From an uncultured bacterium (GTDB lineage Bacteria > Bacteroidota > Bacteroidia > Bacteroidales > Bacteroidaceae), in the NCBI GenBank assembly GCA_905216095.1, contig CAJMSQ010000011.1, positions 1 to 62,970 of the forward strand: a stretch of DNA of 62,970 nt. Reading direction: 5' to 3'. Position 1 is the first letter of the stretch; each line of letters starts with the position of its first letter. Under the pieces are notes generated by a model, which was given only the letters and a program-made list of their open reading frames with translations, did no database searches and was not told the DNA's origin. This document shows, one piece after another, positions 18,858 to 56,386 of this stretch. The position numbers and the translations under genes are program-made.

Positions 18858-19108
18858 AACATTAACATTTTTAACTTTCCCGCGCGGTCGGCAACGTCGA
18901 TAAGTAATGTTCTGTCAAATAGGATAAGGGCATTTTCATCCGGAAGTATCTTAAAAAATCCTACAAGCAGCCTAAAAAAATTTTCCCTAAGGGTAGTTTT
19001 GCGCAAAAGCAGGGCATTTTGATACAAAACAGGGCGGGTTTTTCCCGCCCCTATCCTTTGGTAATACAAATATACTACTTTTTTTGCCGAAAAGCAAGAA
19101 GTGTTAAA
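18858..19108 (-). repeat. Dispersed intergenic element, copy A
   Basis: The most divergent of five related elements. Read on the minus strand it starts with TTTAACA (19108-19102), then TTG (19097-19095), a 20-base spacer, and TATATTTG (19074-19067). A GGGCGGG/CCCGCCC hairpin (19050-19032) precedes a TGTTTTG run. A variable middle contains CTTGTAGGATTT, shared with copy B, and the end is GTTAAAAATGTTAAT (near 18860). It lies between divergent menG and fmt. The remainder of that gap (18613-18857) shows nothing recognisable beyond the menG -7 box. Confidence 0.75.
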
Positions 19109-19116
19109 GCAGCCGT

Positions 19117-19138
19117 GGGAGATGTTAAAACATCTCCC
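19117..19138. repeat. Perfect palindrome between element A and fmt
   Basis: GGGAGATGTT and AACATCTCCC are perfectly complementary with only two bases between them. This lies 8 bases outside the left end of element A. It could be an operator or a bidirectional terminator; no T run follows. Confidence 0.5.
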
Positions 19139-19269
19139 CGCGAATATCAAGTCCCCCGCGAATTGCCCTGTGCAAGTGCTGTCCCCGTAAACTTTTATTG
19201 CTAAATTTGCCTACGATTACGCGGCGGGCTCGTGCGCACCGCCCTGACACGAAAACTCCCGATAGAAGA

Positions 19270-20238
19270 ATGAAAAAGGAAGAACTCAGAATTGTTTACA
19301 TGGGCACTCCCGACTTTGCCGTGGAAAGCCTGCGCCGCCTCGTCGAAGGCGGATACCATGTTGTAGGTGTCGTAACCATGCCGGACAAGCCCGTAGGGCG
19401 TCACCAGAATGAGCTGTCATCCTCGCCCGTAAAGCGGTATGCGGTGGAACAGGGCCTGCCCGTGCTGCAACCGGAACGGCTGAAAGACGAGACTTTCCTG
19501 GAAGAACTGCGGGCACTGCGGGCAGACTTGCAGGTGGTGGTGGCTTTCCGCATGTTGCCCGAAGTGGTATGGAACATGCCGCCCCGAGGCACTTTCAACC
19601 TACATGCCGCCCTGCTGCCCCAATACCGTGGTGCGGCGCCCATCAACTGGGCGGTCATCAACGGCGACACGCAGACCGGCGTCACCACGTTCTTTCTGGA
19701 CCATGAGATTGATACGGGGAATGTCATCAAGCGCGTGCCTGTCCCCATTCTCGACACGGACAACGCCGGCGACGTACACGACAAACTGATGGACCTCGGG
19801 GCACAACTGGTGCTGGAAACGGTAGACGACATCCTGGCCGGAGACATACGCCCCATTCCGCAGGAGGAACTGACGAGTAGCGAACCGCTACGCCCCGCTC
19901 CCAAGATATTCAAGGAGACGTGCCGCATAGACTGGAACGGCGGGGTGAAACAGACTTACGACTTCATACGCGGACTGTCACCCTACCCCGCCGCCTGGAC
20001 GGAACTGGTATGCGGCGGAAAACGTTCCGTGCTCAAAGTTTATGCTTCCGAAAAGGAATTCTGCCGGCCGGACGAGGCACCCGGCACATTGGTAACGGAC
20101 GGACACAAAACGCTGAAGGCGGCCCTGCACGACGGATACCTGCACTTGCGCGAACTGCAATTGGCCGGAAAGAAGCGGATGAGTGCGGAACAATTTCTGA
20201 ACGGCTTCCGCGCCGAACCGGACATGAGGGTGGAATAA
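19270..20238 (+). CDS. fmt: Methionyl-tRNA formyltransferase
   Basis: A protein of 322 residues from MKKEELRIVYMGTPDFAV. It shows the formyltransferase fold with the folate-binding HAALLPQYRGAAPINWAVINGD region (His and Asn of the active site), the TGVTTFFLDHEIDTGNV motif with the catalytic Asp, and a C-terminal tRNA-binding domain. It formylates initiator Met-tRNA. The start at 19270 is preferred because a 24-residue extension upstream is rich in Arg and not family-like. TAAATTTG at 19202-19209 may be the -7 box. A strong terminator follows directly. Confidence 0.94.
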   Translation: MKKEELRIVYMGTPDFAVESLRRLVEGGYHVVGVVTMPDKPVGRHQNELSSSPVKRYAVEQGLPVLQPERLKDETFLEELRALRADLQVVVAFRMLPEVVWNMPPRGTFNLHAALLPQYRGAAPINWAVINGDTQTGVTTFFLDHEIDTGNVIKRVPVPILDTDNAGDVHDKLMDLGAQLVLETVDDILAGDIRPIPQEELTSSEPLRPAPKIFKETCRIDWNGGVKQTYDFIRGLSPYPAAWTELVCGGKRSVLKVYASEKEFCRPDEAPGTLVTDGHKTLKAALHDGYLHLRELQLAGKKRMSAEQFLNGFRAEPDMRVE

Positions 20239-20242
20239 ACAA

Positions 20243-20288
20243 ATCCGCGCCGACAGGGAACTTTCACTACAGCCCTGTCGGCGCGGAT
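20243..20288 (+). terminator. Hairpin after fmt
   Basis: A 16-bp perfect stem (arms 20243-20258 and 20273-20288, sequence ATCCGCGCCGACAGGG) with a 14-base loop, starting 4 bases after the fmt stop codon. A T run is absent. Confidence 0.7.
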
Positions 20289-20438
20289 GCTTCGGAATGA
20301 AACTTTGGATGCTTTTCTGACCGTAACAGGCCGCCCCTTCATTACCATATCCATAAACGAAGGATACCACACATACATCAAGCCCGAATCTATCATAAGT
20401 CAAAGGCCTGCCAGAGATACGGGAAAACGCCACAAGAA

Positions 20439-20470
20439 TTTGGCGGACTGAATTAAATACACTACATTTG
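20439..20470 (+). promoter_or_regulatory. Promoter of the vWA-type secreted protein
   Basis: TTTG (20439-20442), 20 bases, TACATTTG (20463-20470). It implies a leader of about 320 bases before the start codon at 20798. Confidence 0.6.
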
Positions 20471-20477
20471 CCATTGG

Positions 20478-20797
20478 TTTCGCCTTGCGGTTTCGACTGC
20501 AAGGAAGAATCACTTACATACATAAGGAAGCGTTTTGCTTTATCCTATCATCGGAAATCGCCAAAAACTCTCGGTACAGGATAAGCAGTCAAAAACGCTT
20601 CACGTTTGCGCTATATCCCACCCCGTCAGCGCGGGGCTGATATATCGGCGTGGCGTGGGGTGGACTGTTTATTGTACCTAAGGCGTTTGGCGATGCCTCG
20701 ATGATGATAACCAGTGAACATTGCCCACGCTTTTTCCGTATCATCAATCCCCCTAAAAAGCCGACGCGGGGCAACAGCCGGCGCACTTGTTAAAACT
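20478..20797 (+). other. Long, hairpin-rich 5' leader
   Basis: The untranslated leader contains a large stem (20527-20601): GAAGCGTTTT pairs with AAAACGCTTC and, inside it, GCTT(T)ATCC pairs with GGATAAGC. A second stem (20618-20663) pairs CCACCCC with GGGGTGG. No known riboswitch family is recognised. An alternative in-frame ATG at 20714 would lengthen the protein by 28 residues but would place the signal peptide internally. Confidence 0.4.
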
Positions 20798-22948: not shown

Positions 22949-23005
22949 ACTGCGTAAACTCGGATAAAATCTCTTAGTGGAAGAATTATAGATGTGCCTA
23001 TATTA

Positions 23006-23046: not shown

Positions 23047-23106
23047 TTGTTGCATTTAGCGGATTGTATCATATTTTCCGACACAAAAGGCTTGCTATGC
23101 CCGGGC

Positions 23107-27228: not shown

Positions 27229-27272
27229 TTTCTGTTATAACTTTAAGTGGTTAATTATTTTAATTTTCGGTT

Positions 27273-27740
27273 TCAAAACGCCGACGCAGGACGCAGCCCT
27301 TCCAGGCGGTGCAACATTTCGGCATTGCATTGTCCTTCCTCGTGCGTGCGCTGGATGGGTAATGACAGGACCACCTGTTCATAAATGTCCCAGGCCACGT
27401 CATAGACGTAAGTACCGGGTTGCAACAGGCGTATGTCGTCATCGGAAGCCGCCTCGTCTGCCTCGGGGCGAATAGTCAGGGTGTCTTCGGTATCGACATC
27501 CACTTCCATTTCGTCCAGACAACGGTCACATTGCACGCGGACCTTGCCTTCGGCATGTACATGAAGCTTGAATATTTCGCCGGCCACTTCCGAGGCTTTC
27601 AATGTCACATCTAATGCTCCACCCAAGATTTCATCTTGTTCCAATCCCTCGAAGAAGTCATCCGACAAAGTAATTTTCAGCGGTTTATCCTCACGGACAG
27701 CCGCTTTCATATCTATATGCAGCGCTTCCATACTTGTCAT
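27273..27740 (-). CDS. yceD: DUF177 (YceD) family protein
   Basis: A protein of 155 residues. DUF177 proteins nearly always precede rpmF and are thought to act in 23S rRNA accumulation. Visible family features are VRCDRC-like VQCDRCLDEMEV (CxxC) in the middle and YDVAWDIYEQVVLSLP in the second half. The start may be at 27740 or three codons later (MEALHIDM); both keep the domain. It is the first gene of the operon. Confidence 0.88.
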   Translation of the reverse strand: MTSMEALHIDMKAAVREDKPLKITLSDDFFEGLEQDEILGGALDVTLKASEVAGEIFKLHVHAEGKVRVQCDRCLDEMEVDVDTEDTLTIRPEADEAASDDDIRLLQPGTYVYDVAWDIYEQVVLSLPIQRTHEEGQCNAEMLHRLEGLRPASAF

Positions 27741-27870: not shown

Positions 27871-28121
27871 TTTAACATTTCTTGCTTTCGGGCGAAAAAT
27901 GTATTATCTTTGCAACAGGAAAGTGCGGAGGACGGCGTAAACCGTCCTTTTTTCGTTCCATATGGCCGCCTTTTCGGAAAAAACATGCCCGAAACAGGAA
28001 AAACTGGATGCCTTGTAGTTTTTCCTACATGGCTTGTAGGATTTCCGGTCCCTGCATGTACGGAAAACTACAAGCCATGTACATCGCTCAAATTGTGCAT
28101 AAAGGTTAAAAATGTTAATAT
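27871..28121 (+). repeat. Dispersed intergenic element, copy B
   Basis: TTTAACA (27871-27877), TTG (27882-27884), 20 bases, TATCTTTG (27905-27912). Eighteen bases later the hairpin GGACGG/CCGTCC (27930-27947) is followed by six T residues. The middle holds a perfect 14-bp inverted repeat, TACATGGCTTGTAG (28026-28039) with CTACAAGCCATGTA (28068-28081). The end is GTTAAAAATGTTAAT (about 28104-28118). The element lies between yceD and the RNase P RNA gene. The rest of the gap (27741-27870, 28122-28222) shows nothing clear. Confidence 0.8.
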
Positions 28122-28222: not shown

Positions 28223-28592
28223 GGAAACAGCCGGCCTGTAAGCCGGGTTCTGTACATTGCGGGGCAATGCGTCTGCCATTTATCCAGACTTGCCGTCACC
28301 GACAAGCTCTATCGTCCTACCCTCCGATGCGCTGCGCTCGGGCGGGCCGCCCTCAGGCACCGGTTTACATGGACTTTCAACTCCCGACGTGCACGGCCTG
28401 ACGTGTCACCACGCAGCCGGTGGTCTCTTACACCGCCTTCTCACCCTTACCGTCACGAAGACGGCGGTTATTTTCTTCTGCATCTGTTCGCCCTCGCGGA
28501 CGACTTCTCATTAGGAAGCGGGATGCCCTGTGTTGCCCGGACTTTCCTCTTGCGGCATTCTGCACACAAGCGGCAGACCGTCCGGCTGTTTC
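28223..28592 (-). ncRNA. rnpB: RNase P RNA (bacterial class A)
   Basis: Read on the minus strand, the 5' part contains the universal GAGGAAAGTCCGGGCA and CACAGGGCA stretches, and the 3' part contains ACAGAACCCGGCTTAC. The ends pair (GAAACAGCCGG with CCGGCTGTTTC) to form helix P1, which sets the boundaries at about 28592 and 28223. About 370 nt is normal. The RNA is the catalytic part of RNase P, which matures tRNA 5' ends. A TACCTTTG -7 box lies at 28609-28602, immediately upstream. Confidence 0.95.
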
Positions 28593-28724: not shown

Positions 28725-30011
28725 ATGAAAATACGCATACCTGTTCACAAACGATTATACCGGGCAACCGCGATATGGACTTTGTTGTTATGTTCCACCC
28801 TGCCTACCGGGGCGCAATATACGGAAATCCATGACAGCCGCATTGCGACGGTGCGCATGTCCGCCGCGGAAAAGACGGGCGGGCTTCCGGTGCTCCGGTA
28901 CGGGCAGAGAGACCTGCTTGAAGTCTCTTTTGACGACTTGAGCCACGAATACAGGCGTTTCACCTATAAGGTGGAACACGTCGATGCCGACTTCAAGCCG
29001 GAAGAGGAACTGTTTGAGAGTGACTACGTGCAGGCCGTGGGCGAAGACGAGGTCATCACGGACTACGCACAGAGCATGAACACCTCTGTCCTCTACACAC
29101 ACTACTCCTTTACGTTGCCCAACGCGCAGGTCCGCCCGCTGTTGTCGGGCAATTACAGACTGACCGTGTTCGGCGAGGACGAGGAAGGAGACCCCACCCC
29201 GGTGTGGCACGGTTTCTTTTACGTGGCGGAAAATGCGGTCGGCATTCTGGCGGAGGGTACGACCAACACTGAAGTGGACCGGAACGACAGTCATCAGCAG
29301 TTGTCGCTGGAGGTGAATTTCAATGCGCTCGCTCCGCGGGCGGCGGCCGAGGAACTGAAAGTGATTGTCCTGCAGAACAACAGATGGGACAACGCCATCC
29401 GTGCGCCGAAGCCTACGGGACAGACCGGAACGTCCCTGTTGTGGAAACATTCGCGCGAACTTATTTTCAAGGCAGGCAATGAATATCGGAAGTTCGAGAT
29501 GCCTTCGACACGGTATCCCGGTATGCACATCGACCGGATGCAATACTACGAGCCTTTTTATCACGCGAGACTGGTGACCGACACTCCACGTAAGAATTAT
29601 TTGTTCGACGAGGACCAGAACGGACGCTTCGTCCCCATTGCCGATTTCGGGGGCGACGCCGACACGGAAGCGGACTACGTCTACGTGCATTTTGCATTAG
29701 AGACGGAGGAAATGCCGGGAACCGACCTGTATGTCAATGGGGACTGGACTTACGACCGCCTGACACCGGACTACCGCATGGCCTATAACGGTCAGTCGGG
29801 GGCATACGAAATCTCGTTGCTCCTGAAACAGGGTTATTACTCCTATCAATACTTGGCCGGACCGCATGGCAGACGGACGGGAATGACTTCCGCCGAAGGC
29901 AACTTCTGGCAAACCGAGAACGAATACACCATATTGGTTTATTATCGGCCGGCCGGCTCACGGTACGACCGCCTTGTGGGATGGCGGACCGCATCGTACC
30001 GCCCCAGATAA
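28725..30011 (+). CDS. DUF5103 protein (type IX secretion system plug)
   Basis: A protein of 428 residues with a signal peptide (RATAIWTLLLCSTLPTGAQ). The body (LLEVSFDDLSHEYRRFTYKVEHVDADF…, then YTHYSFTLPNAQVRPLLSGNYRLTVF, and VYVHFALETEEMPGTDLYVNGDW) matches DUF5103, whose structurally known member plugs the SprA translocon of the type IX secretion system. It probably acts on the periplasmic side of the outer membrane. Its presence implies a type IX system, consistent with two proteins in this window that carry sorting-like C termini. Confidence 0.85.
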   Translation: MKIRIPVHKRLYRATAIWTLLLCSTLPTGAQYTEIHDSRIATVRMSAAEKTGGLPVLRYGQRDLLEVSFDDLSHEYRRFTYKVEHVDADFKPEEELFESDYVQAVGEDEVITDYAQSMNTSVLYTHYSFTLPNAQVRPLLSGNYRLTVFGEDEEGDPTPVWHGFFYVAENAVGILAEGTTNTEVDRNDSHQQLSLEVNFNALAPRAAAEELKVIVLQNNRWDNAIRAPKPTGQTGTSLLWKHSRELIFKAGNEYRKFEMPSTRYPGMHIDRMQYYEPFYHARLVTDTPRKNYLFDEDQNGRFVPIADFGGDADTEADYVYVHFALETEEMPGTDLYVNGDWTYDRLTPDYRMAYNGQSGAYEISLLLKQGYYSYQYLAGPHGRRTGMTSAEGNFWQTENEYTILVYYRPAGSRYDRLVGWRTASYRPR

Positions 30012-37326: not shown

Positions 37327-38412
37327 CTACGCACGCTTTTTTCCGAACAATTCCAACATGGGCTGCAACTTGCGGCACGTTTCCACCCATTCCTCCTCCT
37401 CGTCGCTCGACTCCAGCAATCCGCCGCCGGCATACAGCAGCGCACCGCCGGGCTGCAGCTCCATGCAACGCAGGGAGACGTACAGGTGTGTGCCCCCGTC
37501 CATGCCTATCATACCGCTGAATCCGGCATAATAGCGTCGTCCGTCCGGCTCCGCCTCGTCTATGAGCCGGCGGGCGGCATCCAGCGGAACGCCACATACG
37601 GCCGGTGTCGGATGCAGGCGGTCCAGTATGTCGGCACAATGCACCCCGTCTTTCGGCACGAACCTGAAATCGGTCCGCAGATGCACCAAATCGCCTGCAC
37701 GGCAGGGATAGGCCTCCGAAATGTCTGTCTCTTTCACGACATCACGCAGCCGGTTTTGTATGAAAGCGGAGACGTATCTTTGTTCTTCCTTGTTCTTCGT
37801 GTTCCATGCCGCCGGGTCACTGCCTTCGGCGGCGGTCATCGTCCCGGCCAGGGCCATCGTCGTCCACGAACCGCCGTCGGACGACAGAAGGGTCTCGGGC
37901 GTGGCCACCAGCCAGCATCCCGTCCGGCGGGTCCACCACAGGGATACATAACAATGAGGGTTCAGGCGGCAGGCTTCCCGGAACAATAATATGGGATTGA
38001 CCGAAACGTTTTCCGGGAAACCGACTTTCAGCCGCCGTGAGCAGACGACCTTGCGCACAAGTCCGTGACGAAGGGCTTCATGGCAGACGGAAAAACCGGC
38101 ATGATAGTCGCGACGCCGCACAGGCCCGTCGTGGCTGTAAGGAACGGCCTGACAGGCGGCCGGCAGGACGGGACGCGAGGAAATATAATCGGGACGAATC
38201 AGCAATATCGGTGTCTCGTCGGAAATACTGAAGGGGGCTATCACCACACCCCTCGCGTCTTTCAGTCCGGCGCAGTCCGAAAAGGTCTCGGGCGCATCCC
38301 GCTGCGCCACATAAGTATAGGTGTCTGCATCAGGAAGGCGGAAAAAGACAAATCCTTCCCCGCCAAACCTGCTTTCCAGCGCATCGTCCTCCGTCAAGCC
38401 TTCAATAGCCAT
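37327..38412 (-). CDS. menF: Isochorismate synthase
   Basis: A protein of 361 residues, chorismate-binding family. The C-terminal half shows VVCSRRLKV, LVATPETLLS, ALAGTM, KNKEEQRYV, HPTPAVCGVP and YYAGFSGM, with YVSLRCMEL at the end; the HPTPAVCG and final segments are hallmarks. It opens the menaquinone branch from chorismate. The ATG at 38412 lies inside the end of the upstream lipoprotein gene (11-base overlap), so the two are probably translated from one mRNA. Longer in-frame starts overlap that gene and are rejected. Confidence 0.94.
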   Translation of the reverse strand: MAIEGLTEDDALESRFGGEGFVFFRLPDADTYTYVAQRDAPETFSDCAGLKDARGVVIAPFSISDETPILLIRPDYISSRPVLPAACQAVPYSHDGPVRRRDYHAGFSVCHEALRHGLVRKVVCSRRLKVGFPENVSVNPILLFREACRLNPHCYVSLWWTRRTGCWLVATPETLLSSDGGSWTTMALAGTMTAAEGSDPAAWNTKNKEEQRYVSAFIQNRLRDVVKETDISEAYPCRAGDLVHLRTDFRFVPKDGVHCADILDRLHPTPAVCGVPLDAARRLIDEAEPDGRRYYAGFSGMIGMDGGTHLYVSLRCMELQPGGALLYAGGGLLESSDEEEEWVETCRKLQPMLELFGKKRA

Positions 38413-39268
38413 AATTGACTGCGGCCGGCTTCCCGTCGGGCGTATGATAGTTGCACAACACGGTATTGCCGCCTTGCACGTTATACTCGAACTCAATCGT
38501 ATAGTCCTGCGCGGTCCCCTCGGGATAGTCCACCGAAATCTCCTGCACCAGGTTGGAGGTGGGACGTCCCAGCAAGCCGGCATAATAGAGGTGCTCGAAA
38601 CTGAGGCAGCCCATTTCCTTGGAAACCGTCTCGGGCAACAGGCCGTTCGTATTCACGATGCCGGAGGGCGTAAACGTCAGCACGACAGGTTCGTTGCCGG
38701 CCTCCGTATAGACGATGCGCGACAAATTGCCGTTCACATACTCTATATTGGCCGAGGAACGGTATTGTGCGGCAGGACCGAGACTGTTCTCGAACACCGT
38801 CTTGTTCCATCCGATAAGCCGGCCGTCCATGTAGCGGAACTCATAAATGTTTCCGTTCACCGTCATCCGCTCCACGTAGCCCGAAGAGTTCAGCTTGATG
38901 TCGGTAACCGTACCGTTGGAATTTTTTACCGCCACACTGGCCGGCCCGTAAACCAGGCTGCTGGTATAGGAAAAGGAGCGGTCGATGTCGGGCAACGGGT
39001 CACGCACCGTTCCGGCGGCCGATACCAGGCGGTTGTCCGCATAGGAGAAATCCCAGTCATAGGCCGAAAGCACACTGCCGAGGTGCTTGATGCTGACTAC
39101 CGGAGCGCCTCCGTCGGCCGGAAGCTGCGGACGCATGGCGGGAACGGGATGGTCATCGCCCGAACAGGCTGCCGGCAAAAGCAACGAGACACCCAGGAAC
39201 AGACGGAACGCGGTCCGAACCATCCGGGAATATTTTCTGTGTAAAGTCAAATTCATTTTCATATCCAT
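38402..39268 (-). CDS. Lipoprotein of unknown function (DUF4595-like) upstream of menF
   Basis: About 288 residues. Three ATG codons (39268, 39262, 39256) precede a lipoprotein signal ending in LLLPAACSGDD; TATATTTG at 39297-39290 gives a short leader, favouring one of these over the far upstream start. The body has repeated beta-strand pairs (DFSYADNRLVSAAG, FRYMDGRLIGW, IEYVNGNLSRIVYTE) as in the DUF4595 group of periplasmic or surface lipoproteins; this family name is from resemblance only. Its overlap with menF suggests a shared transcript, not a known shared function. Confidence 0.75.
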   Translation of the reverse strand: MDMKMNLTLHRKYSRMVRTAFRLFLGVSLLLPAACSGDDHPVPAMRPQLPADGGAPVVSIKHLGSVLSAYDWDFSYADNRLVSAAGTVRDPLPDIDRSFSYTSSLVYGPASVAVKNSNGTVTDIKLNSSGYVERMTVNGNIYEFRYMDGRLIGWNKTVFENSLGPAAQYRSSANIEYVNGNLSRIVYTEAGNEPVVLTFTPSGIVNTNGLLPETVSKEMGCLSFEHLYYAGLLGRPTSNLVQEISVDYPEGTAQDYTIEFEYNVQGGNTVLCNYHTPDGKPAAVNYGY

Positions 39269-39452
39269 TGTGTCTAATGAGTGATGCGACAAATATACAG
39301 AAAAAAATCCGAACGCCCCTTGTTTTCGGCTTCTATTTAGGGATAAGACGGAGACAGAACCCGGGGATAGGAAACCGTGAAGCGGCCGTCCGGCCGGGAA
39401 TGCGGTCCGGGAAAAGCCGTCATACGGACAGGTTTCAAGGCCCGCCTTGGAT

Positions 39453-39726
39453 TTTAACACAATTTGCTTTCGGGCAAAAAATGTTGTATCTTTGCATCAG
39501 CGATAAAGGGAGAGGCGGTTTCGGACCGCCTTTTTTCGTGTAAATAAGCCGCTTATGGGCCGATTTACATGTGCATGTAGAAAAATTTAGAAGCAGCCCG
39601 CGCAAAAATACATGCCTTCTATTTGAAAATGGAAGCAGCCCGCGCGCAAAAAGATGCCTTCCACGCAGTCGCAGCCCTATTCCTTTACATATTTTTACGT
39701 AACCAAGGTTAAAAATGTTAATGTCC
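39453..39726 (+). repeat. Dispersed intergenic element, copy C
   Basis: TTTAACA (39453-39459), TTTG (39463-39466), 20 bases, TATCTTTG (39487-39494). The hairpin AGGCGGT/ACCGCCT (39513-39531) is followed by T residues. Two related hairpin units of about 34 bases follow: 39588-39621 (TAGAAG with CTTCTA) and 39630-39663 (TGGAAG with CTTCCA). A TACATG…CATGTA palindrome lies at 39566-39579. The end is GTTAAAAATGTTAATG. It is very similar to copy E and lies between the lipoprotein and nuclease genes. Confidence 0.85.
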
Positions 39727-39837: not shown

Positions 39838-41565
39838 TTATCTGACAAGGACTTTCTTTCCGCTTACGACATAGATGCCACGGGGAAGCCCGTCAAAAGC
39901 GTTCGCCACAGGCACGTCAGAACGGACCACACGTCCGTCAATAGTCAGAACATTCACGTTGCCGGAAACGAACGGGGCTACTGCGATGCCGACATCCGTG
40001 ACATGTTGCCGGAAGAGGCTGACTTTCTGTTGCGAACCGGTATAGCAGGCGAAGCGCGGGGCTGCTGCATTATACTGGATGAGGCGCGTGGGATACTGGA
40101 CGTTGGAGATTTCTGCAATTCCCTGGTTATTGACAGCAATATGCCACTGCGCATTTTCCGCATCGCAGTCTTTCGCGCTGTGAAGTTTGTTGGCGCTGCT
40201 CGTCAATGCCAGATAGATGTCATCAACCCCGTCATAGAAGGTCCACCCCGAAGCATTGCCGCCCAAAGTCAGCATGTAAGGATAACCATCCGTACCGGTC
40301 TCGGTCTCAATCGTAGCGTCGGTCACCGTAACCTCGCAAGTGGTTCGGATATCATTGCCCTGGGCCGACATGGACTGATTCTTCGATGTGCAGACAATGA
40401 GGTAGTTGGCACCGGCCTCGAGTTCGTCGGCCGAAGTCACCTGATAGAAGACATTTTCGCCCTCGGGCTTGCTGATGTCCTTGATGGTATAAGTAGCCCG
40501 GACGGTCTCGCTCTTCTCTTCGCCCAACATGGCATAAGCCGTAATGACGGTAGGTCCGTCAATCGTGACGGTTGCGGACGAGAAGGCCGACTGTTCTTCC
40601 TCGTCATTGACGGTATAGTAGACATAAGCGCCGGATGTGGAGCACGATATGGTCACAACAGTTCCCTCACGCACAGCCCCTTCCTCGGGAGAGAAGGTCG
40701 GTGCGACGAGAATGTCCGGCTGCGTTCCGCCACCATCGTAATTGTCGGGGTCGAAAGCCACATCCTGCTTGCTGCCCCAGATGTATTCTTCCAGACCGGG
40801 GAAGTCGATGAACGGATTGCGGTTGTGCTGGAACTCATAAATGGCATCGTTGCGGTTTACTTCCTTCTCGCTGACGGGATCATTGGTGGCCCACTGCATG
40901 AACATGGTCCGGGCCCACGAAGAAAAGGCGGGATAGACATTTCCCGCAAACGACGCGCCGTTAAAGCCGGCCACACTGCCTTCGTAGGCCGTGGCCACGT
41001 AGAAATAAGAGCGGGCTATGTCGCCTTTGTACAGGTCGTTCGGCTCGAAGACCGTGCCCGAGTAACCGCTGACGCTGCACGGGCCAAGTTTGGAGAAACC
41101 ATTGGCCGACTGGTACGTGGGGTTCTTCACCTCACCGAAAGGATAATTCGAACGGCGATTGTTCACGTAACCGTCTACGGGAATGACATGATAGGCATCC
41201 GCCTTGAGCGGGCCGGCATCCGAAGTTCCCTTGAACCAACTTTGGGGAAGGGAATGCTCGCGATTGTACACGTCGCCCTCACCATGGTAGTTTCCGTTAT
41301 GGTCTCCGACACTGAAACTGGTGGCATTGGAATACATGTCCCAAATCTTGCCGTCGGGCCGCAAATCCGACTTTTCGTAAACGGCAAAAAGGCCGTCGTA
41401 TCCCACATTCGTATGATTGTGGATGATACCATACAGGGCTGTTTTCAAAGCCGCGCCTTTCTTCCCTTTGGCCGCTGTGTAATATCCGCGGGGGACGCCG
41501 GCCAAAAGTGTTGCTGCCATGAGCAACGCACTCCATAACAAAAGAAATCTCTTCTTTTCCATCAT
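39838..41565 (-). CDS. Secreted endonuclease I family nuclease with type IX sorting-like tail
   Basis: A protein of 575 residues. After a signal peptide (FLLLWSALLMAATLLAGVP), residues about 25-270 form an endonuclease I domain with the active-site stretch YNREHSLPQSWF (about 102), HVIPVDGYVNNRRSNYPFGEV and NRNPFIDFPGLEEYIWG. A beta-sandwich CHB_HEX_C-like segment follows (APTFSPEEGAV… YYTVNDEE), then a beta-rich region (about 380-535), and a C-terminal LPRGIYVVSGKKVLVR typical of type A sorting domains. It probably degrades extracellular DNA or RNA for nutrition or defence. Confidence 0.88.
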   Translation of the reverse strand: MMEKKRFLLLWSALLMAATLLAGVPRGYYTAAKGKKGAALKTALYGIIHNHTNVGYDGLFAVYEKSDLRPDGKIWDMYSNATSFSVGDHNGNYHGEGDVYNREHSLPQSWFKGTSDAGPLKADAYHVIPVDGYVNNRRSNYPFGEVKNPTYQSANGFSKLGPCSVSGYSGTVFEPNDLYKGDIARSYFYVATAYEGSVAGFNGASFAGNVYPAFSSWARTMFMQWATNDPVSEKEVNRNDAIYEFQHNRNPFIDFPGLEEYIWGSKQDVAFDPDNYDGGGTQPDILVAPTFSPEEGAVREGTVVTISCSTSGAYVYYTVNDEEEQSAFSSATVTIDGPTVITAYAMLGEEKSETVRATYTIKDISKPEGENVFYQVTSADELEAGANYLIVCTSKNQSMSAQGNDIRTTCEVTVTDATIETETGTDGYPYMLTLGGNASGWTFYDGVDDIYLALTSSANKLHSAKDCDAENAQWHIAVNNQGIAEISNVQYPTRLIQYNAAAPRFACYTGSQQKVSLFRQHVTDVGIAVAPFVSGNVNVLTIDGRVVRSDVPVANAFDGLPRGIYVVSGKKVLVR

Positions 41566-44038: not shown

Positions 44039-44668
44039 TTATTTTGTTTCACTTTCATCGTCGTCAATAAAGGCCAAAGAAAGAATCTTGCCCAACCGCT
44101 CACGCAAAGAAGGTTCATCGCATAGCCGGACGGATATGGCGAGAAGCGTACAAGTATCGGTGTAATTCCGCTCCACGATGTCGGCCATGCCTTCACGCAC
44201 AAAGCGCATGGCCACATCGGCATCGGCGTAAGGGACCCGCACCCGGAAAACCGTTTTCACTATTTTCTCCTCTATCACCGCCGCATCCAAAGCGGCAGCC
44301 GCGGCAGTTTTGTATGCGACAGCCAGTCCGCCCGTCCCGAGCTTGACTCCGCCGAAATAGCGCACGACGACGATCAACGTAAAAGTAACGTCGAGCGCGC
44401 GCAAACGGCCGAGAATCGGTTTACCAGCCGAGCCGGAAGGTTCTCCGTCGTCATTGGCGCGGGATTTCCCGCCGTCAAAGCCAAGCACATAGGCGTAGCA
44501 GACATGACGGGCATCGTAATACTTCTTACGAAGCTCCGCCGTTATCCGTCTGACATCGTCTTCGGTGTCCACATGATACGCAAAAGCGAGGAAACGGCTG
44601 CGCTTCTCCGTATAGACAGCCTCGCCGGGATGCGTCAATGTGCGGTAAACGTCCTTAACATCGGGCAT
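44039..44668 (-). CDS. yigZ: YigZ/IMPACT family protein
   Basis: A protein of 209 residues. UPF0029 features: KRSRFLAFAYHVDTEDDV, YDARHVCYAYVLG, RANDDGEPSGSAGKPIL and VVRYFGGVKLGTGGLAVAY. The eukaryotic relative IMPACT binds GCN1 and affects translation control; the bacterial role is unknown. The start codon overlaps the ettA stop by one base, which suggests translational coupling with a ribosome-binding ATPase. Confidence 0.92.
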   Translation of the reverse strand: MPDVKDVYRTLTHPGEAVYTEKRSRFLAFAYHVDTEDDVRRITAELRKKYYDARHVCYAYVLGFDGGKSRANDDGEPSGSAGKPILGRLRALDVTFTLIVVVRYFGGVKLGTGGLAVAYKTAAAAALDAAVIEEKIVKTVFRVRVPYADADVAMRFVREGMADIVERNYTDTCTLLAISVRLCDEPSLRERLGKILSLAFIDDDESETK

Positions 44669-46362
44669 CAGTCTTCCAACTTGCGGTAACGGATTCTCTT
44701 AGGTTCTTCCAAGCCGAGCCGTTTGGCCTTGTTGGCCTCATAATCACTGTAAGAGCCTTCAAAGAAAAAGACTTTCCCGTCTCCCTCAAAGGCCAGGATA
44801 TGCGTACATATACGGTCGAGGAACCAACGGTCGTGGCTAATCACGACGGCACAGCCGGCAAACCCCTCCAAGCCCTCTTCGAGCGCGCGCAAGGTGTTCA
44901 CGTCGATGTCATTGGTCGGCTCGTCGAGCAACAGGACATTGCCTTCCTGTTTCAGTGCAAGGGCCAAATGCAGGCGATTGCGCTCGCCTCCCGAAAGCAC
45001 ACCGCACTTCTTTTCCTGGTCAGCCCCCGAAAAGTTAAAGCGGCTAAGGTATGCACGCGCGTTGATGTCGCGTCCGCCCATACGGATTAGTTCATTGCCT
45101 TGGCTGACCACCTCATAGACGCTCTTGTCGGCCTGTATGTCACGATGTTGCTGGTCCACGTACGAAAGTTTCACGGTCTCCCCTACCTCGAAGCTGCCGC
45201 CATCGGCTTGTTCAAGCCCCATAATCAGACGGAACAGTGTGGTTTTTCCCGCTCCGTTCGGGCCGATGACACCGATGATGCCGTTAGGCGGCAACATGAA
45301 GTTCAAGTCCGAAAAGAGCGTCTTTGCCCCGAAAGCCTTGGCTACATGCTGCGCCTCGATAACCTTGTTGCCGAGACGCGGACCATTCGGGATGAATATT
45401 TCAAGATGCTGTTCCTTTTCCTTCTGGTCCTCATTCAGCAGACGGTCATAAGAATTAAGACGCGCCTTGCCCTTGGCCTGCCGGGCCTTAGGTGCCATAC
45501 GCACCCACTCCAGCTCGCGCTCCAGCGTCTTACGCCGCTTGCTGGCCACTTTCTCTTCCATCTCCATGCGTTTGGTCTTCTGCTCCAGCCACGAAGAATA
45601 GTTTCCCTTCCAGGGAATGCCCTCGCCACGGTCAAGTTCAAGTATCCAGCCGGCCACATCATCAAGGAAGTAGCGGTCGTGCGTCACGGCTATCACAGTG
45701 CCCTCGTACTGGTTGAGGTGCTGTTCCAGCCAGTCGATGCTCTCGGCGTCCAGGTGGTTGGTCGGCTCGTCGAGCAAAAGCACGTCGGGCTTCTGCAAGA
45801 GCAAACGGCAAAGCGCCACACGGCGACGCTCTCCGCCGGAAAGATGTTCGGCCTTCTGGTCGGCCGGCGGACAACGGAGTGCCGACATGGCACGCTCCAA
45901 ACGGGAGTCCAGGTTCCAGGCATCGGTGGCATCGAGCACATCCTGCAACTCACCCTGACGGGCAAACAACGCATTCATCTTGTCCTCGTCCTCATAATAT
46001 TCGGGCAAGCCGAATTTCTGATTGATTTCTTCATACTCTGCCAGGGCATCCACTACATGCTGGACGCCCTCCTGTACGATTTCACGTACCGTCTTGGCAT
46101 CGTCGAGATGCGGTTCCTGAGGCAGGTATCCGACGGTATATCCCGGAGAAAACACCACCTCGCCCTGATAATCGTTGTCCAATCCGGCAATAATCTTCAT
46201 CAACGTGGACTTTCCCGCACCGTTCAGACCGATAATGCCTATCTTCGCTCCATAGAAAAAGGAAAGATAGATATTTTTCAGTATCTGCTTGTTCGTCTGC
46301 TTAATGGTTTTGGAGAGTCCCACCATCGAAAAAATGATTTTCTTGTCGTCTGCTGCGGCCAT
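44668..46362 (-). CDS. ettA: Energy-dependent translational throttle protein EttA
   Basis: A protein of 564 residues, ABC-F class. Two complete nucleotide-binding domains are visible: GLNGAGKST with LSGGERRRVALCRLLL and [15 protein letters not shown]; and GPNGAGKTT with LSGGERNRLHLALAL and [15 protein letters not shown]. The linker (WVRMAPKARQAKGKARLNSYDRL) has the EttA-type arginine-rich motif. EttA binds the ribosomal E site and slows initiation when ATP is low. It diverges from marR with only 57 bases between them. Confidence 0.95.
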   Translation of the reverse strand: MAAADDKKIIFSMVGLSKTIKQTNKQILKNIYLSFFYGAKIGIIGLNGAGKSTLMKIIAGLDNDYQGEVVFSPGYTVGYLPQEPHLDDAKTVREIVQEGVQHVVDALAEYEEINQKFGLPEYYEDEDKMNALFARQGELQDVLDATDAWNLDSRLERAMSALRCPPADQKAEHLSGGERRRVALCRLLLQKPDVLLLDEPTNHLDAESIDWLEQHLNQYEGTVIAVTHDRYFLDDVAGWILELDRGEGIPWKGNYSSWLEQKTKRMEMEEKVASKRRKTLERELEWVRMAPKARQAKGKARLNSYDRLLNEDQKEKEQHLEIFIPNGPRLGNKVIEAQHVAKAFGAKTLFSDLNFMLPPNGIIGVIGPNGAGKTTLFRLIMGLEQADGGSFEVGETVKLSYVDQQHRDIQADKSVYEVVSQGNELIRMGGRDINARAYLSRFNFSGADQEKKCGVLSGGERNRLHLALALKQEGNVLLLDEPTNDIDVNTLRALEEGLEGFAGCAVVISHDRWFLDRICTHILAFEGDGKVFFFEGSYSDYEANKAKRLGLEEPKRIRYRKLED

Positions 46363-46987: not shown

Positions 46988-47240
46988 TTTAACACAACTT
47001 GCTTTTGGCCGAAAAATGTATTAACTTTGTGAAACGGAAATGCAGGGGACGGTGAAAGCCGCCCTTTTTTCGTACAAGACAGCCGCCTTCTACCCTGTTT
47101 TTGCCCAAAGAAACGGTTTCGCAGATGCCTTATGGTTTTTCCTACATGCCATGTAGTTTTTCCTATCCCTGTTTCAGGTGCCGGACAGATGCCGCCCGCG
47201 TTCCACCTTCACGGGCATAAAAGTTAAAAACCTTAATTTT
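46988..47240 (+). repeat. Dispersed intergenic element, copy D
   Basis: TTTAACA (46988-46994), TTG (46999-47001), 20 bases, TAACTTTG (47022-47029). The hairpin GGACGG/CCGCCC (47047-47064, one A-C mismatch) is followed by six T residues. The middle has CTACATG/CATGTAG (47142-47156) flanked by two GTTTTTCCTA units. The end GTTAAAAACCTTAAT is slightly diverged. It lies between marR and the NifU-like gene. The rest of the gap up to 47440 shows no clear feature. Confidence 0.78.
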
Positions 47241-47491: not shown

Positions 47492-48193
47492 ATGGAATAT
47501 TCACACGAAGTTCAAAACATGTGTTGCGTGGCCAAAGGCCCCAACCACGGACCTGCTCCGATTCCCGAAGAGGGCAAGTGGGTGCAAGCAAAAGAAATTA
47601 AGGACATCTCCGGTCTGACACACGGAGTTGGTTGGTGCGCGCCGCAGCAGGGAGCCTGCAAGCTCACGCTCAATGTCAAGGAGGGCGTCATCGAAGAATG
47701 TCTGGTAGAGACCATCGGTTGCTCGGGTATGACCCACTCCGCCGCCATGGCCAGCGAAATACTCCCGGGCAAGACCATCCTCGAAGCCTTGAATACCGAC
47801 CTCGTTTGCGATGCCATCAACACTGCCATGCGCGAACTCTTCCTCCAGATCGTTTACGGTCGTACGCAGTCCGCATTCTCTGAGGGCGGTCTCGTCATCG
47901 GCGCCGGACTGGAAGACCTTGGCAAGGGACTCATCAGCCAGACAGGTACGCTCTACGGCACCAAAGTGAAAGGCAGCCGTTATCTCCAGCTCACCGAAGG
48001 CTATATCACGAAGATGTACCTCGACAAGGACGACCAGGTTTGCGGATATGAATTTGTCCACATGGGCAAGTTCATGGATGCCATCAAGAAGGGTATGCCC
48101 GCCGACGAGGCACTCAAGAGCGTCACCGGTACTTACGGCCGCACGAAAACCGAAGACGGTGCAGTTAAATCAATCGATCCGCGTCACGAATAA
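47492..48193 (+). CDS. NifU-like iron-sulfur scaffold protein paired with GGGtGRT protein
   Basis: A protein of 233 residues. Residues about 45-110 resemble the NifU/IscU N-terminal scaffold: GWCAPQQGACKLTLNVKEGVIEEC, VETIGCSGMTHSAAMASEILPG. Two cysteines of the scaffold pattern (in GWC and IGC) are conserved, along with an N-terminal MCCVAKG. Unlike IscU, it ends in an unrelated tail (YGRTKTEDGAVKSIDP). TAACTTTG at 47443-47450 is a possible -7 box. It is 17 bases from the GGGtGRT gene. A role in Fe-S assembly or in a metal-binding complex is inferred, not shown. Confidence 0.82.
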   Translation: MEYSHEVQNMCCVAKGPNHGPAPIPEEGKWVQAKEIKDISGLTHGVGWCAPQQGACKLTLNVKEGVIEECLVETIGCSGMTHSAAMASEILPGKTILEALNTDLVCDAINTAMRELFLQIVYGRTQSAFSEGGLVIGAGLEDLGKGLISQTGTLYGTKVKGSRYLQLTEGYITKMYLDKDDQVCGYEFVHMGKFMDAIKKGMPADEALKSVTGTYGRTKTEDGAVKSIDPRHE

Positions 48194-52695: not shown

Positions 52696-52702
52696 ATTTG
52701 GA

Positions 52703-52742
52703 AAGCCCACCTAACGCATTAAGAAATTGCGCCGGTGGGCTT
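52703..52742 (-). terminator. Hairpin after folC
   Basis: AAGCCCACC and GGTGGGCTT pair around a long loop, about 100 bases beyond the folC stop and just upstream of the DUF4468 promoter. Confidence 0.6.
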
Positions 52743-52845
52743 CAATATGAATATCAAGGAAGGATTTGTCCGGGCATCCGATTGGCAGCCGTGACCGGGC
52801 CATATCGTATCGTTCAGATGAAACTTAGGGAGTATTCCACCCGGG

Positions 52846-54153
52846 TCAGGCATCCGGACACAACGCTTCCCATCCGCCGGAAGCCAGGAAGTCAGCCACG
52901 ATAAAGCTGCTGCCGCCGACGTAAATAAGGTCGTCCGGCGCGGCCTCGGCAGCTGCGGCACGGAAGGCCGAGGGCACGTCCGGACAGGCGACGCCATGCA
53001 ATCCATGAAGGCGGGCTTTCTCAAGCAGTTCCGCCTCGTTCATGGCACGACGTACAGATGCTTTGGTGAAATAATAGCAGGCCGTCGGCGGCAGGAGGGA
53101 CAAAACGGTATCGATGTCCTTATCCCCGGCCATGCCGAAGACGACATGAATCTTCCGATAAGCCGCATTTTCAAGTTGTTTCCCGAGGTACTGCCAGCCA
53201 CCGGGATTGTGACCGGTGTCACATATCACCATCGGCTCACGATGCACCACTTCCCAACGACCACGCAGATGGGTGAGAGCCTTTACTTTGGAGAAAGCCT
53301 CCGTTATGACGGAATTGTCCAGCGGAAGAAACTCTTTGAGAACCTTCAGTGCACAAAGCAGTGTCTCGACATTCTTTCTTTGACACGCTCCAGGCAGGTC
53401 ATAAACCAGTCGGCCGAACGTACGCGTCTCGCACACCATCCTGGACTCATCCACACTATGCCAGCTTACCAGTTCGGGGGCATCCTCGGCAAAGTACAAG
53501 GGCGCCCCTACCCTGTCGGCCGCCTCCCGGAACACACGGCGCGTAGAGTCCTGCGCCTCTCCCACGACAGCCGGAACGCCAGACTTGATGATGCCGGCCT
53601 TCTCGGCGGCTATCCGCTCCGGCGTATCGCCCAGGAACTGCGTATGATCAAGACTTATGTTCGTGATAAGCGACAAGACCGGCGTGATGATGTTGGTGCA
53701 ATCCAACCTTCCCCCCAGTCCCGTCTCGATGACAGCGATATCTACGCCGGCGTCCTCGAAATATTTGAAAGCCAAGGCCGTGGTCAGTTCGAAGAAGGAC
53801 GGGTGCAAAGGTTCAAAGAATGCCCGTTCCCGTGCGACAAAGTCCACGACATACTGTTCGGGAATCATCTCGCCGTCCACGCGGATGCGTTCCCTGAAGT
53901 CCACCAGGTGGGGCGACGTGTACAAGCCCACGCGGTAGCCGGCCACCCGAAGGACGGCCGCCAGCGTGTGGGCGCAAGAGCCTTTGCCGTTGGTCCCGGC
54001 CACGTGTATGGTGCGGTAACGGCGGTGCGGATGCCCGAAGTGCCGGTCCAGGTCCAGGGAATTCTGAAGTCCCGGCTTATAAGCAGCCCCGCCTATCTGT
54101 TGAAAAAGCGGGGCACTGTCGTATAAATATTGTATGGTTTCCTGATAATTCAT
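52846..54153 (-). CDS. folC: Folylpolyglutamate synthase / dihydrofolate synthase
   Basis: A protein of 435 residues of the Mur ligase superfamily. The P-loop HVAGTNGKGSCAHTLAAVL is at about 48-66, YTSPHLVDFRERI follows, and AVIETGLGGRLDCTNI and TNISLDHTQFLG are the family omega-loop and catalytic segments; DTGHNPGGW lies in the C-terminal domain. It adds glutamate to folates. It is downstream of dnaJ, separated by 39 bases, and probably on the same transcript. Confidence 0.94.
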   Translation of the reverse strand: MNYQETIQYLYDSAPLFQQIGGAAYKPGLQNSLDLDRHFGHPHRRYRTIHVAGTNGKGSCAHTLAAVLRVAGYRVGLYTSPHLVDFRERIRVDGEMIPEQYVVDFVARERAFFEPLHPSFFELTTALAFKYFEDAGVDIAVIETGLGGRLDCTNIITPVLSLITNISLDHTQFLGDTPERIAAEKAGIIKSGVPAVVGEAQDSTRRVFREAADRVGAPLYFAEDAPELVSWHSVDESRMVCETRTFGRLVYDLPGACQRKNVETLLCALKVLKEFLPLDNSVITEAFSKVKALTHLRGRWEVVHREPMVICDTGHNPGGWQYLGKQLENAAYRKIHVVFGMAGDKDIDTVLSLLPPTACYYFTKASVRRAMNEAELLEKARLHGLHGVACPDVPSAFRAAAAEAAPDDLIYVGGSSFIVADFLASGGWEALCPDA

Positions 54154-54192
54154 CGTTTTCTGTTTTCAAGAAAAGCCGGAAGCAGGTTACAC

Positions 54193-55359
54193 TCAACTGA
54201 AGTAGGAGCGGAATTTCTTGAATATCTTTTCCTTGACCGAACCCGTCGGCTTCATGTTCTCACTGTCCTTCATTTTCTCCATGGCCTTGCGTTCCTCGCG
54301 CGACAAGGTTTCGGGAATGTAAATGCTGATGTTCACGACGATGTCGCCCGTGCCATATCCGTATCCGCGGACGGCGGGAAGGCCCTTGCCACGCAAGCGG
54401 AGCGCGGTTCCCGGCTGCGTACCCGGTTCTATCTTGATGCGGGCGCGGCCGTCGATGGTCGGCACCTCGACCGTATCGCCCAGCGTGGCCTGCGGAACGG
54501 TCAGCAGCAAGTTATAAATCAGGTCGTTCTCGTCGCGGATGAGTTCGGCATGGGGTTCCTCTTCGATGAGCACCTGGATGTCGCCGGGTATGCCTTTGTG
54601 CTTGCCGGCATGGCCTTTGCCCGGAACGTTGAGCACCATGCCTTCGGATACACCGGCCGGAACATTGATTTCCACGATTTCCTCACCGCTCACGACGCCT
54701 TCGCCGTTACACTTCTTGCACTTGTGGGTTATAATGGTTCCCTCACCGCCACAGGTGGGACAGGGCTCCTGCGTCTGCACCATGCCGAGCATACTGCGCT
54801 GGCTGCGGACAACGTAGCCCGAGCCGTGGCAGGTGGAACAGGTCTCGGGCGAATGGCCGCTTTCGCAGCCGCTGCCGCCGCAGGCATCGCAGGTCACGTT
54901 CTTCCGCACCTTGAATTTCTTGGTGACTCCGCCGGCCACTTCCTGCAAAGAGAGTTTCACCTTCAGACGGAGGTCACCTCCCTTGAACTGCGGACGGCCT
55001 CTGTGGCCGCCTCCGCGGGAGAAACCGCCGAAACCGCCGAAGCCCATATCGCCAAATATATCTCCGAAATGAGAGAATATATCGTTGATGTCCATTCCCT
55101 GCCCGCCGAAACCGCCGAAGCCACCGGCACCATTCACGCCTGCCGCACCGAACTGGTCGTAGCGGGCACGTTTGTCCGGGTCGCGAAGCACGTCATAGGC
55201 TTCGGCCGCCTCCTTGAACTTTTCCTCGGCGGCCTTGTCGCCCGGGTTCCGGTCGGGATGGTACTTGATGGCCACCTTCTTGTAGGCACGCTTTATCTCG
55301 TCGGCCGTGGCCGTCTTCTCCACGCCCAATATCTTGTAATAATCTTTTTCGTCTGCCAT
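54193..55359 (-). CDS. dnaJ: Chaperone protein DnaJ
   Basis: A protein of 388 residues with all DnaJ parts: J domain with HPD in [14 protein letters not shown] (about 33-46), Gly/Phe-rich region ([19 protein letters not shown]), four CxxCxGxG zinc motifs ([32 protein letters not shown]), and the C-terminal substrate-binding domain. It stimulates DnaK. It follows grpE by 67 bases, forming a grpE-dnaJ unit without dnaK. Confidence 0.97.
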
Positions 55360-55426
55360 AACTGTTTGTCTTTTTAACGGTCTGCGTTTACCTCTCTGCT
55401 ATCGTCCGCCATAAGGACGGGACGCA

Positions 55427-55999
55427 TCATTGTCCGACCACCACCTTGGCGTGACGGATTACCTTCTCGTTCAGCAGATAGCCCGCCTGCACACAGTCGA
55501 TGACATGGTTTTTCTGCGCTTCGTCCTGTGCGGGAATCTGCGCGATGGCTTCATGGAAATCCGTATCGAACACCGCGCCGTCGGTCTCCATCTTCTTCAG
55601 GCCTTGCGCGGAGAGAGTTTTCATGAACTTGGAGAGAATCAGGTCCACGCCTTCCTTCAGCGTGGCCACGTCCGTGGATTTCCCAATATTCTCCTGTGCC
55701 CTTTCCAGGTCGTCAAGGACGGGTAGCAGGCTTTCGAGCACCTTGCGGCCGCCGTTCAGTATCAGGTCCGTCTTTTCCTTCAGGGTGCGTTTGCGGAAAT
55801 TATCGAACTCGGCCATCTGACGCAGCAACTGGTCCTTGAGCTGTGCAATCTGTTCCTCGGCTTCCTGCAACTTTTCGGCATCGGTCTTTTCCGTGGCCTC
55901 GGCTTCGGGCTCGTTTTGGTTTTCCTGCGCCTCGCAGGTCTCGTCACCCGCTTCCTTCAGTTCGTTCTCTTCTTGTTTGATTTTATCTTCTTCTGACAT
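55427..55999 (-). CDS. grpE: Nucleotide exchange factor GrpE
   Basis: A protein of 190 residues. A very acidic N terminus leads into a long coiled coil (LQEAEEQIAQLKDQLLRQMAEFDNFRKRTLKEK), then LLPVLDDLERA, and a beta domain ending in YLLNEKVIRHAKVVVGQ. GrpE releases ADP from DnaK. It is directly preceded by a sigma-54-like promoter, with dnaJ downstream. Confidence 0.96.
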   Translation of the reverse strand: MSEEDKIKQEENELKEAGDETCEAQENQNEPEAEATEKTDAEKLQEAEEQIAQLKDQLLRQMAEFDNFRKRTLKEKTDLILNGGRKVLESLLPVLDDLERAQENIGKSTDVATLKEGVDLILSKFMKTLSAQGLKKMETDGAVFDTDFHEAIAQIPAQDEAQKNHVIDCVQAGYLLNEKVIRHAKVVVGQ

Positions 56000-56030
56000 G
56001 ACTTTTTTATATTATTTTTCTATTCTTGTT

Positions 56031-56050
56031 TATGCAAAAAATATGCCAAA
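56031..56050 (-). promoter_or_regulatory. Sigma-54-like promoter before grpE
   Basis: On the minus strand TTTGGCAT (56050-56043), five T or A bases and TTGCATA: TGGCA with a T at the sixth place, and a perfect TTGC, in the correct spacing (GG to GC 12 bases). The expected start lies about 20 bases before the grpE ATG at 55999. No TAnnTTTG box competes closely. Confidence 0.55.
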
Positions 56051-56112
56051 TGCAGGCTCTCCGCCCATTATCGCCCATTCCGAAGTACCCGGCCCGCTTT
56101 TCTGCCACAGCC

Positions 56113-56386
56113 GACATTAACATTTTTAACTTTGGTTACGTAAACAAATGCAAAAACAACAGGCGTACGACCGCTTGGAAGGCATCTATGTGCGCGCGGA
56201 CTGCTTCCATTTCAAAATAGAAGGCATGTATTTTTACGCAGGCTACTTCTAATTTTTTCTACATGTGCATGTAAAACGTTCCATAAGGGGCTTATTTACA
56301 CGAAAAAAGGCGGTCCGAAACCGCCTTTCCCTTTTTCTGTACCACAAAGATACAATTTTTTTCCGCCAAAAGCAAGCAATGTTAAA
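56113..56386 (-). repeat. Dispersed intergenic element, copy E
   Basis: On the minus strand: TTTAACA (56386-56380), TTG (56375-56373), 20 bases, TATCTTTG (56352-56345), hairpin AGGCGGT/ACCGCCT (56326-56308), T or A-rich run, two hairpin units (56251-56218, TAGAAG/CTTCTA; 56209-56176, TGGAAG/CTTCCA) and GTTAAAAATGTTAATG at the far end (about 56113). It is nearly identical in plan and largely in sequence to copy C, and lies in the 491-base gap between grpE and the ABC-F gene. The remainder of that gap (56387-56490) is GC-rich with nothing recognisable. Confidence 0.85.

Follow-up and report, generated by a model that had tools for sequence, protein, structure and literature searches.

BOX elements of Streptococcus pneumoniae follow a modular boxA-boxB-boxC plan, and REP/BIME elements, which go with RAYT transposases, are intergenic, contain palindromic parts and show no convincing target-site duplication. 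Here we describe a repeated element of ~250-280 bp that occurs five times in the window, that is, the whole stretch of 62,970 nt analysed (contig CAJMSQ010000011.1, from an uncultured bacterium of the Bacteroidaceae). We read these repeats, with rather better than even confidence, as short non-autonomous mobile elements resembling miniature inverted-repeat transposable elements (MITEs) and confined, within the genomes searched, to a few species of a single genus related to Prevotella. They resemble BOX in having fixed end modules and a variable number of middle units, and differ from it in unit size, sequence and phylum. The three REP/BIME properties recur here as well; in contrast, our elements are much longer and carry a promoter, and the genome of Prevotella sp. 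MGM2, with ~150 copies, has no Y1_Tnp match.

The plan is closest to that of BrickBuilt, a MITE of Porphyromonas gingivalis whose ends and unit differ. In the parts of the report drawn on here (PMC4596501), BrickBuilt is likewise a species-restricted, intergenic element of Bacteroidales with reported promoter activity, in which a leader and a tail that carry short inverted ends enclose an array of roughly two helical turns (23 nt). The terminal inverted repeat (TIR), however, is the IS5-like GAGACCTTTGCA in BrickBuilt and TTTAACA...CTTTC here, the copy number is 19 there and ~150 in MGM2, and the array consists there of 1-22.8 direct 23-nt repeats and here of a few direct and inverted units spaced by 21 bp; those parts of the report contain neither a promoter-terminator cassette nor a spacing rule. 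Correia elements of Neisseria are also MITE-like, with many copies and internal promoters, but in the sections of PMC10969869 used here these promoters are reported to enhance neighbouring genes, whereas in our elements a terminator follows at once. The same sections describe BOX, RUP and SPRITE elements as bunching together, the opposite of the mutual exclusion reported below. By analogy, our family may work like BrickBuilt, Correia and BOX elements; we claim membership in none of them.

Inverted ends, promoter-terminator unit and 21-bp array

An earlier note on this DNA had proposed the five copies, and all were recovered at their positions and on their strands. A single pattern for the common promoter (TTAACA, TTGCTTT, an A run and TAnnTTTG) matched the window at exactly five places with no mismatch, against 0.00 in dinucleotide-preserving shuffles, and the spacing from TTG to TAnnTTTG was exactly 20 bases in all five, as had been claimed. 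The proposed end motif, GTTAAAAATGTTAAT, is exact in four copies, and the copy at 46988 departs from it at two bases; one more match, at 27250 with three mismatches, lies outside the copies and is at chance level (1.35 expected). When the window was searched by nhmmer with models built from window or MGM2 copies, the same five places and no sixth copy were returned, and the extra matches were solely weak ones on the opposite strand inside the copy at 27871. Further copies exist outside the window, in MGM2 (G001, a 2.9-Mb draft genome) and in another species of its genus (G129, 2.8 Mb), and the similarity of middle and ends is not at chance level, so the family stands; pattern scans, shuffles and reversed controls reject chance or artefact as its source.

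The ends form an imperfect inverted repeat, TTTAACA...GCTTTC and GAAAGTT...TGTTAA, and in an alignment of 55 MGM2 copies (A2) TTAAC pairs with GTTAA and GCTTTC with GAAAGT. The promoter lies inside the left end, which contains its -33 side, with TTG and TAnnTTTG 20 bp apart. The sigma-ABfr consensus reported for Bacteroides is TAnnTTTG with TTTG near -33 (PMC7366714, in the part used here), and by its motifs the left-end promoter reads as one of the Bacteroidota type. Its strong conservation, already proposed, was also seen in copies located by the right end alone: among the first 30 exact right-end matches in MGM2, 10 of which were dropped as too near a contig end, 17 of the remaining 20 carry the exact left end and promoter, and 18 do so within two substitutions. 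This figure is less biased than a count of 72 of 75, which comes mostly from contigs picked by promoter matches. The copies in the alignment and in the divergence set below were found by the promoter pattern, so their promoter conservation is partly selected.

A hairpin resembling an intrinsic terminator follows the -7 box. Its stem is paired in 92.1% of cells, where shuffles reach 84.6% and slid controls no more than 67.4%. In 48 cells both sides have changed in a compensatory way, compared with 18.6 for shuffles; since related sequences may score above their shuffles even if no structure is present, the slid control matters. The transcript from promoter to terminator is predicted to be ~40-45 nt long. 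Conservation between species extends to the promoter-terminator structure but not to the leader and loop.

The middle of the element, described earlier as hairpin-rich, is in fact mainly an array with 21-bp periodicity that lies between the terminator and the right end. In all three genomes 6-mers recur at offsets 21 and 42, with 3.09 and 0.91 recurrences per copy in MGM2 (85 copies), 12.42 and 1.12 in G129 (24 copies) and 2.6 and 3.2 in the window (5 copies), whereas the shuffle maximum at any offset is 0.069, 0.05 and 0.18, respectively. Lengths to the right end in the window are 247-249 in three copies and 269-270 in two, a step of ~21; in MGM2 they are 259-262 in 68 of 85 copies, 279-282 in seven and 235-268 in ten. 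The array unit depends on the genome, being CCCCGTATT or CCAAGTATT in MGM2, TTTGCCTTC in G129 and GCCTTGTAG or GCCTTCTA in the window. Because units occur in both directions, the middle matches its own reverse strand in 14 of the 41 loci examined, two of which are the same copy. Matching changes between units, such as RNA pairing would leave, were not seen by eye in the 55-copy alignment. The period of two helical turns is thus kept while the unit sequence changes, which points to a protein bound to the array along one face of the helix. We know of no 21-bp array in Correia elements. This periodicity and the spacing of copies are the two most unusual properties of the family, and both were absent from the earlier note.

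In G129, one copy (contig C203, at 6581; L185) has the element core in other outer flanks than 26 further listed copies, which share ~28 bp before the core and, where a right end is present, ~41 bp after it. The C203 copy suggests that the core ends at TTTAACA and TGTTAA plus a few bases, and a larger derivative seems to have been amplified from the core in this genome. On each side, the flanks of 23 of 27 copies in G129 (for example L176, L177, L189 and L190) match other places in the sequence examined; these matches are partly the common outer flank and partly unrelated repeated intergenic blocks adjoining the elements.

Distribution and spacing of copies

An exact pattern scan of 84,980 species, one genome each, returned 31 stretches, 30 of them in MGM2; the remaining one is in a metagenome-assembled genome labelled Bacillota and has no right end downstream. 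With up to three mismatches MGM2 has 142 matches, and none to the reversed pattern. Across 58 genomes of the genus, there are 147 matches in MGM2, 28 in G129, one in a single further genome and none in 55. A loose exact pattern run over 399 genomes of the family gave 150 in MGM2, 28 in G129, one each in two genomes and none in 395, and the reversed pattern gave three matches in all. The carriers so far are taken to be three related bacteria, namely MGM2, G129 and, as the third, the species of the window. An earlier extrapolation to hundreds of copies per genome is roughly right for MGM2 (~150 by pattern) and fails for G129 (28).

The distribution within the genus is patchy. One 538-aa ABC-F-like protein of the window is 93% identical to that of MGM2 and 88% identical to that of G129, and in five non-carriers (G242, G243, G065, G241 and G238) the same protein is also 92-93% identical; five members of the genus as near to the window as MGM2 thus have no match while the more distant G129 has 28 copies. 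Viral contigs, plasmids and phages gave no match (plasmids and phages being queried with one copy), which leaves phage or plasmid cargo unsupported. No Rfam family reached its gathering score over any window copy, the Rfam matches in the window being RNase P and tRNA only. A relaxed threshold, applied to the region of the copy at 18858 only, gave sub-threshold matches to PrrB_RsmZ (21.9 bits, where the cut-off is 44) and L20_leader, which we took as chance. Literature searches, made in open-licence papers, did not turn up the family under any name.

In MGM2 neighbouring copies keep a minimum distance. The 75 gaps between neighbouring matches, drawn from 1.08 Mb of contigs that were mostly chosen for carrying copies and in some cases for synteny with the window, are at least 3,057 bp long, and none is below 3 kb. 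Simulated placement under three nulls (by length, per gap and with exclusive gaps) gave means of 29, 27 and 22 gaps below 3 kb, and never under 9 in 1000 runs of each. These matches belong to a set of 117, obtained by merging 139 raw nhmmer matches to 118 and removing one short one; 93 of the 117 span >200 model positions, and the rest are partial, a few of which may be terminators of other genes. With matches of >200 positions only, 53 gaps remain, none below 3 kb, with simulated means of 18, 17 and 13 and a minimum of 5. Because 15 of 20 further MGM2 contigs, these 15 all <3 kb, read as N and could hide close pairs between broken copies, the test was also confined to pairs in which both copies lie >300 bp from a contig end: none of the resulting 54 gaps is below 3 kb, against 13.3 expected, and 0 of 2000 simulations had none.

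A hard 3-kb limit by itself would leave the spacing a little less even than is observed (P 0.027). Among gaps under 6 kb, 14 of 22 separate copies in the same orientation; neither orientation is depleted among near neighbours, and loss by recombination between direct repeats is thus disfavoured as the cause of the spacing. The window gaps between successive copies are 9.0, 11.6, 7.5 and 9.2 kb, and the smallest gap in the parts of G129 examined is 9.0 kb, where copies are too sparse for a spacing test. Copy density along the MGM2 chromosome seems uneven, and one stretch of ~87 kb (G001:C291:20001-106800; L203-L207) is free of copies, next to regions where one occurs every ~8 kb.

Mobile elements as the probable explanation, and the alternatives

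Several properties point to mobile elements of the MITE type as the probable explanation. The elements share with MITEs their shortness, the absence of coding capacity (a single gene call in the window falls mostly within a copy, a weak one at 18848-19069 with score 15 that is taken as spurious) and terminal inverted repeats, imperfect in the 55 aligned copies. They are intergenic, with 2 of the 117 MGM2 matches in a called gene after removal of weak calls overlapping elements, and their positions mostly differ between species. The gap that holds the window copy at 56113 was matched on both sides in MGM2 and G129 and contains no copy there, a presence/absence difference at a matching site that is between species and not strains. 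The two neighbours of the copy at 27871 lie apart in both genomes with no copy beside either, and those of the copy at 39453, of which one was found in each genome, likewise adjoin no copy. In a tree of sampled copies, all 40 from MGM2 fall on one side (99/97) and the 13 from G129 fall together (93/93), copies without a recognised right end having been excluded here and from the identity counts; this fits amplification within lineages, possibly with transfer. Earlier, the choice had been put as one between small RNA and MITE: lineage amplification, differing positions and the patchy range speak for the MITE side. A trans-acting small RNA is disfavoured by the shortness of the predicted transcript (~40-45 nt), by a leader that varies between species and by the retention of the promoter-terminator structure instead.

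A mechanism can be proposed in which a protein supplied in trans, either a transposase or its partner, would bind the phased array and the ends and move the element between intergenic sites. The bound array might also exclude new insertions nearby, as in target immunity. The left end could be opened or marked by its promoter, and the terminator would prevent transcripts from running on into the array and the neighbouring genes. Movement, transcription and protein binding are inferences from sequence.

A number of observations weigh against mobile elements. A check for target-site duplications, recommended in the earlier note, found none convincing in 81 MGM2, 24 G129 and 5 window copies, so that this property of MITEs is missing; a few offsets were slightly above 30 shuffles, but in few copies, at least one of their two sides lay off the element ends, they were not the same for different word lengths, and the test is blind to TTAA shared with the ends. 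No precise empty site was found, as the intergenic DNA of the species does not align, and one weak case inside same-genome repeats of G129 was not usable. Neither was a transposase with matching ends found, and PF09299 (Mu-transpos_C), the transposase expected of Tn7/Mu-like movement with target immunity, had no match in 16 genomes, a result of little weight because none of the 14 control genomes gave one either. A longer autonomous version was not noticed in these incomplete genomes, in which distant end pairs were not systematically searched; 14 right ends lack a left end at element distance, most of them at contig edges. The window copies fall into two groups in the tree and not a single one, one of them nearer G129 (90/82), although the single protein compared places the window organism nearer MGM2. 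The evidence for the spacing rule comes from one draft genome, that of MGM2.

Two positions are also shared, and the copies are unexpectedly diverged. MGM2 has a copy before the gene matching the right-hand neighbour of the copy at 46988, in the same orientation, and one upstream of the same gene as the copy at 18858, in the opposite orientation; G129 has neither. In sequence these counterparts are far from the closest, at ranks 54 and 80 of 85 MGM2 copies, and 24 of the 68 divergent MGM2 gaps hold a copy, so the two shared places of five are not clearly above chance and are not strong evidence of common descent; for these two copies neither common descent nor independent insertion is shown. 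When MGM2 copies are compared with those most similar to them, the median difference is still 23% over the element and 40% in a block under weak constraint, whereas 16 promoter/TIR positions differ by 0.7% and all 16 are consensus in 80 of 85 copies. It follows that either each copy is maintained on its own, or new copies from diverse masters take the place of old ones more quickly than these decay. High divergence around an intact core is unlike passively decaying insertions; it would be explained by conservative (cut-and-paste) movement of old lineages, or by a host function.

The alternative that best survives, which we nevertheless consider unlikely, is that copies are host-useful nucleoprotein sites, at which a chromosomal DNA-binding protein on the 21-bp array would bound chromosome or supercoil domains of ~8 kb, with the short transcript unit forming part of the barrier. 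It would account for MGM2 copies never lying <3 kb apart, for individual copies being kept despite high divergence, for two-turn phasing being kept as the unit sequence changes, and for a 75-kb MGM2 contig with gaps of 8.3, 8.6, 7.9, 9.1, 8.7, 8.9 and 7.6 kb (P ~1e-5 under a gamma fitted to the gaps, for a contig chosen after looking). However, G129 has only 28 copies in 2.8 Mb, 55 of the 58 genomes of the genus lack any match and another has just one, the ~87 kb of one MGM2 contig is copy-free, and positions mostly differ between species. A further reading, to which we give somewhat less credence, is a dispersed, self-spacing system of nucleoprotein sites, in which each copy would bring its own promoter-terminator unit and a two-turn phased array for a species-specific binding protein, and the copies would together partition stretches of the chromosome into segments of ~8 kb; a mobile element would then have been, or be in the course of being, domesticated as chromosome architecture.

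A family of small-RNA genes, each copy giving a hairpin RNA of 40-45 nt that acts in trans, is very doubtful. An exact promoter, seen in 17 of the 20 copies recognised from their right end alone, and the compensatory changes in the terminator stem speak for such genes, but the leader and loop are not conserved across species, ~150 near-redundant copies are present, and no Rfam family reaches its gathering threshold over the window copies. It is scarcely probable that the elements act as mobile promoters of adjacent genes, the role suggested for Correia and BrickBuilt. Each window copy has a strong promoter match, and in MGM2 a copy is present in 24 of 68 gaps between divergent genes, compared with 52 of 368 between tandem and 12 of 58 between convergent genes; a terminator, however, follows within ~40 nt, and there is no clear orientation bias to genes (29 tandem-sense and 23 tandem-antisense copies), which together make a role as gene promoter unlikely. 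REP/BIME-like elements moved by RAYT (the Y1 tyrosine transposase) would share the intergenic location, the palindromic parts and the want of convincing target-site duplication, but are the most improbable of all and largely refuted for MGM2, the richest genome, which has 0 matches to PF01797, against one in G129 and matches in 28 of the 58 genus genomes, of which only G129 carries the family.

If this picture is confirmed, the family would add to MITE-like repeats a type that couples a self-contained promoter-terminator unit, a two-turn phased binding array of fixed period whose sequence varies between species, and a minimum spacing. The spacing makes target immunity of a tiny non-autonomous element, or a role of a repeat in chromosome domains, testable in Bacteroidota. 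The elements may also partly explain assembly breaks in such genomes, with 26 of the 117 mapped MGM2 matches within 300 bp of a contig end.

The five copies in the window

Promoters and left ends were located by pattern scan (for copy 1 with direct reading), right ends by motif scan and terminators, whose limits are approximate, by folding. Copy 1 (18858..19108, minus strand) lies between a ubiE-like gene (17875-18705, minus) and an fmt-like gene (19270-20238, plus). Its left end at 19067..19108 comprises TTTAACA, TTG, the 20-bp spacer and TATATTTG, with the -7 box at 19067-19074; the terminator hairpin and T run are at 19024..19051 and the right end GTTAAAAATGTTAAT at 18861..18875. Copy 2 (27871..28121, plus) lies between a yceD-like gene (27273-27731, minus) and the RNase P RNA gene (28223-28589, minus). 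It has its left end and promoter at 27871..27912 (-7 box TATCTTTG at 27905-27912), hairpin and T run at 27927..27953, an array of 21-bp periodicity at about 27990..28092 (GCCTTGTAG / GGCTTGTAG, inverted CTACAAGCC) and the right end GTTAAAAATGTTAAT at 28105..28119.

Copy 3 (39453..39726, plus) lies between a DUF4595 gene (38402-39460, minus), the true start of which is probably lower than called, and an endonuclease I gene (39838-41565, minus); the left end and promoter are at 39453..39494, hairpin and T run at 39509..39536 and right end GTTAAAAATGTTAAT at 39708..39722. Copy 4 (46988..47240, plus) occupies a divergent gap between an ABC-F-like gene (44668-46362, minus) and a gene at 47492-48193 (plus), with left end and promoter (TAACTTTG) at 46988..47029, hairpin and T run at 47044..47071 and the right end with two mismatches at 47223..47237. 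Copy 5 (56113..56386, minus) lies between an ABC-F-like gene (56491-58107, minus) and grpE (55427-55999, minus), with left end and promoter at 56345..56386, hairpin and T run at 56302..56329 and right end GTTAAAAATGTTAAT at 56116..56130.

The statement that no copy lies within a transcription unit is not established, as copies 2, 3 and 5 lie between same-strand neighbours (RNase P RNA and yceD, endonuclease I and DUF4595, and ABC-F-like and grpE, respectively). The RNase P RNA at 28223-28589 is of the bacterial class A and is separated from the right end of copy 2 by ~100 bp. Divergent from it, at 28725-30011, is a gene encoding a type 9 secretion system plug protein domain.

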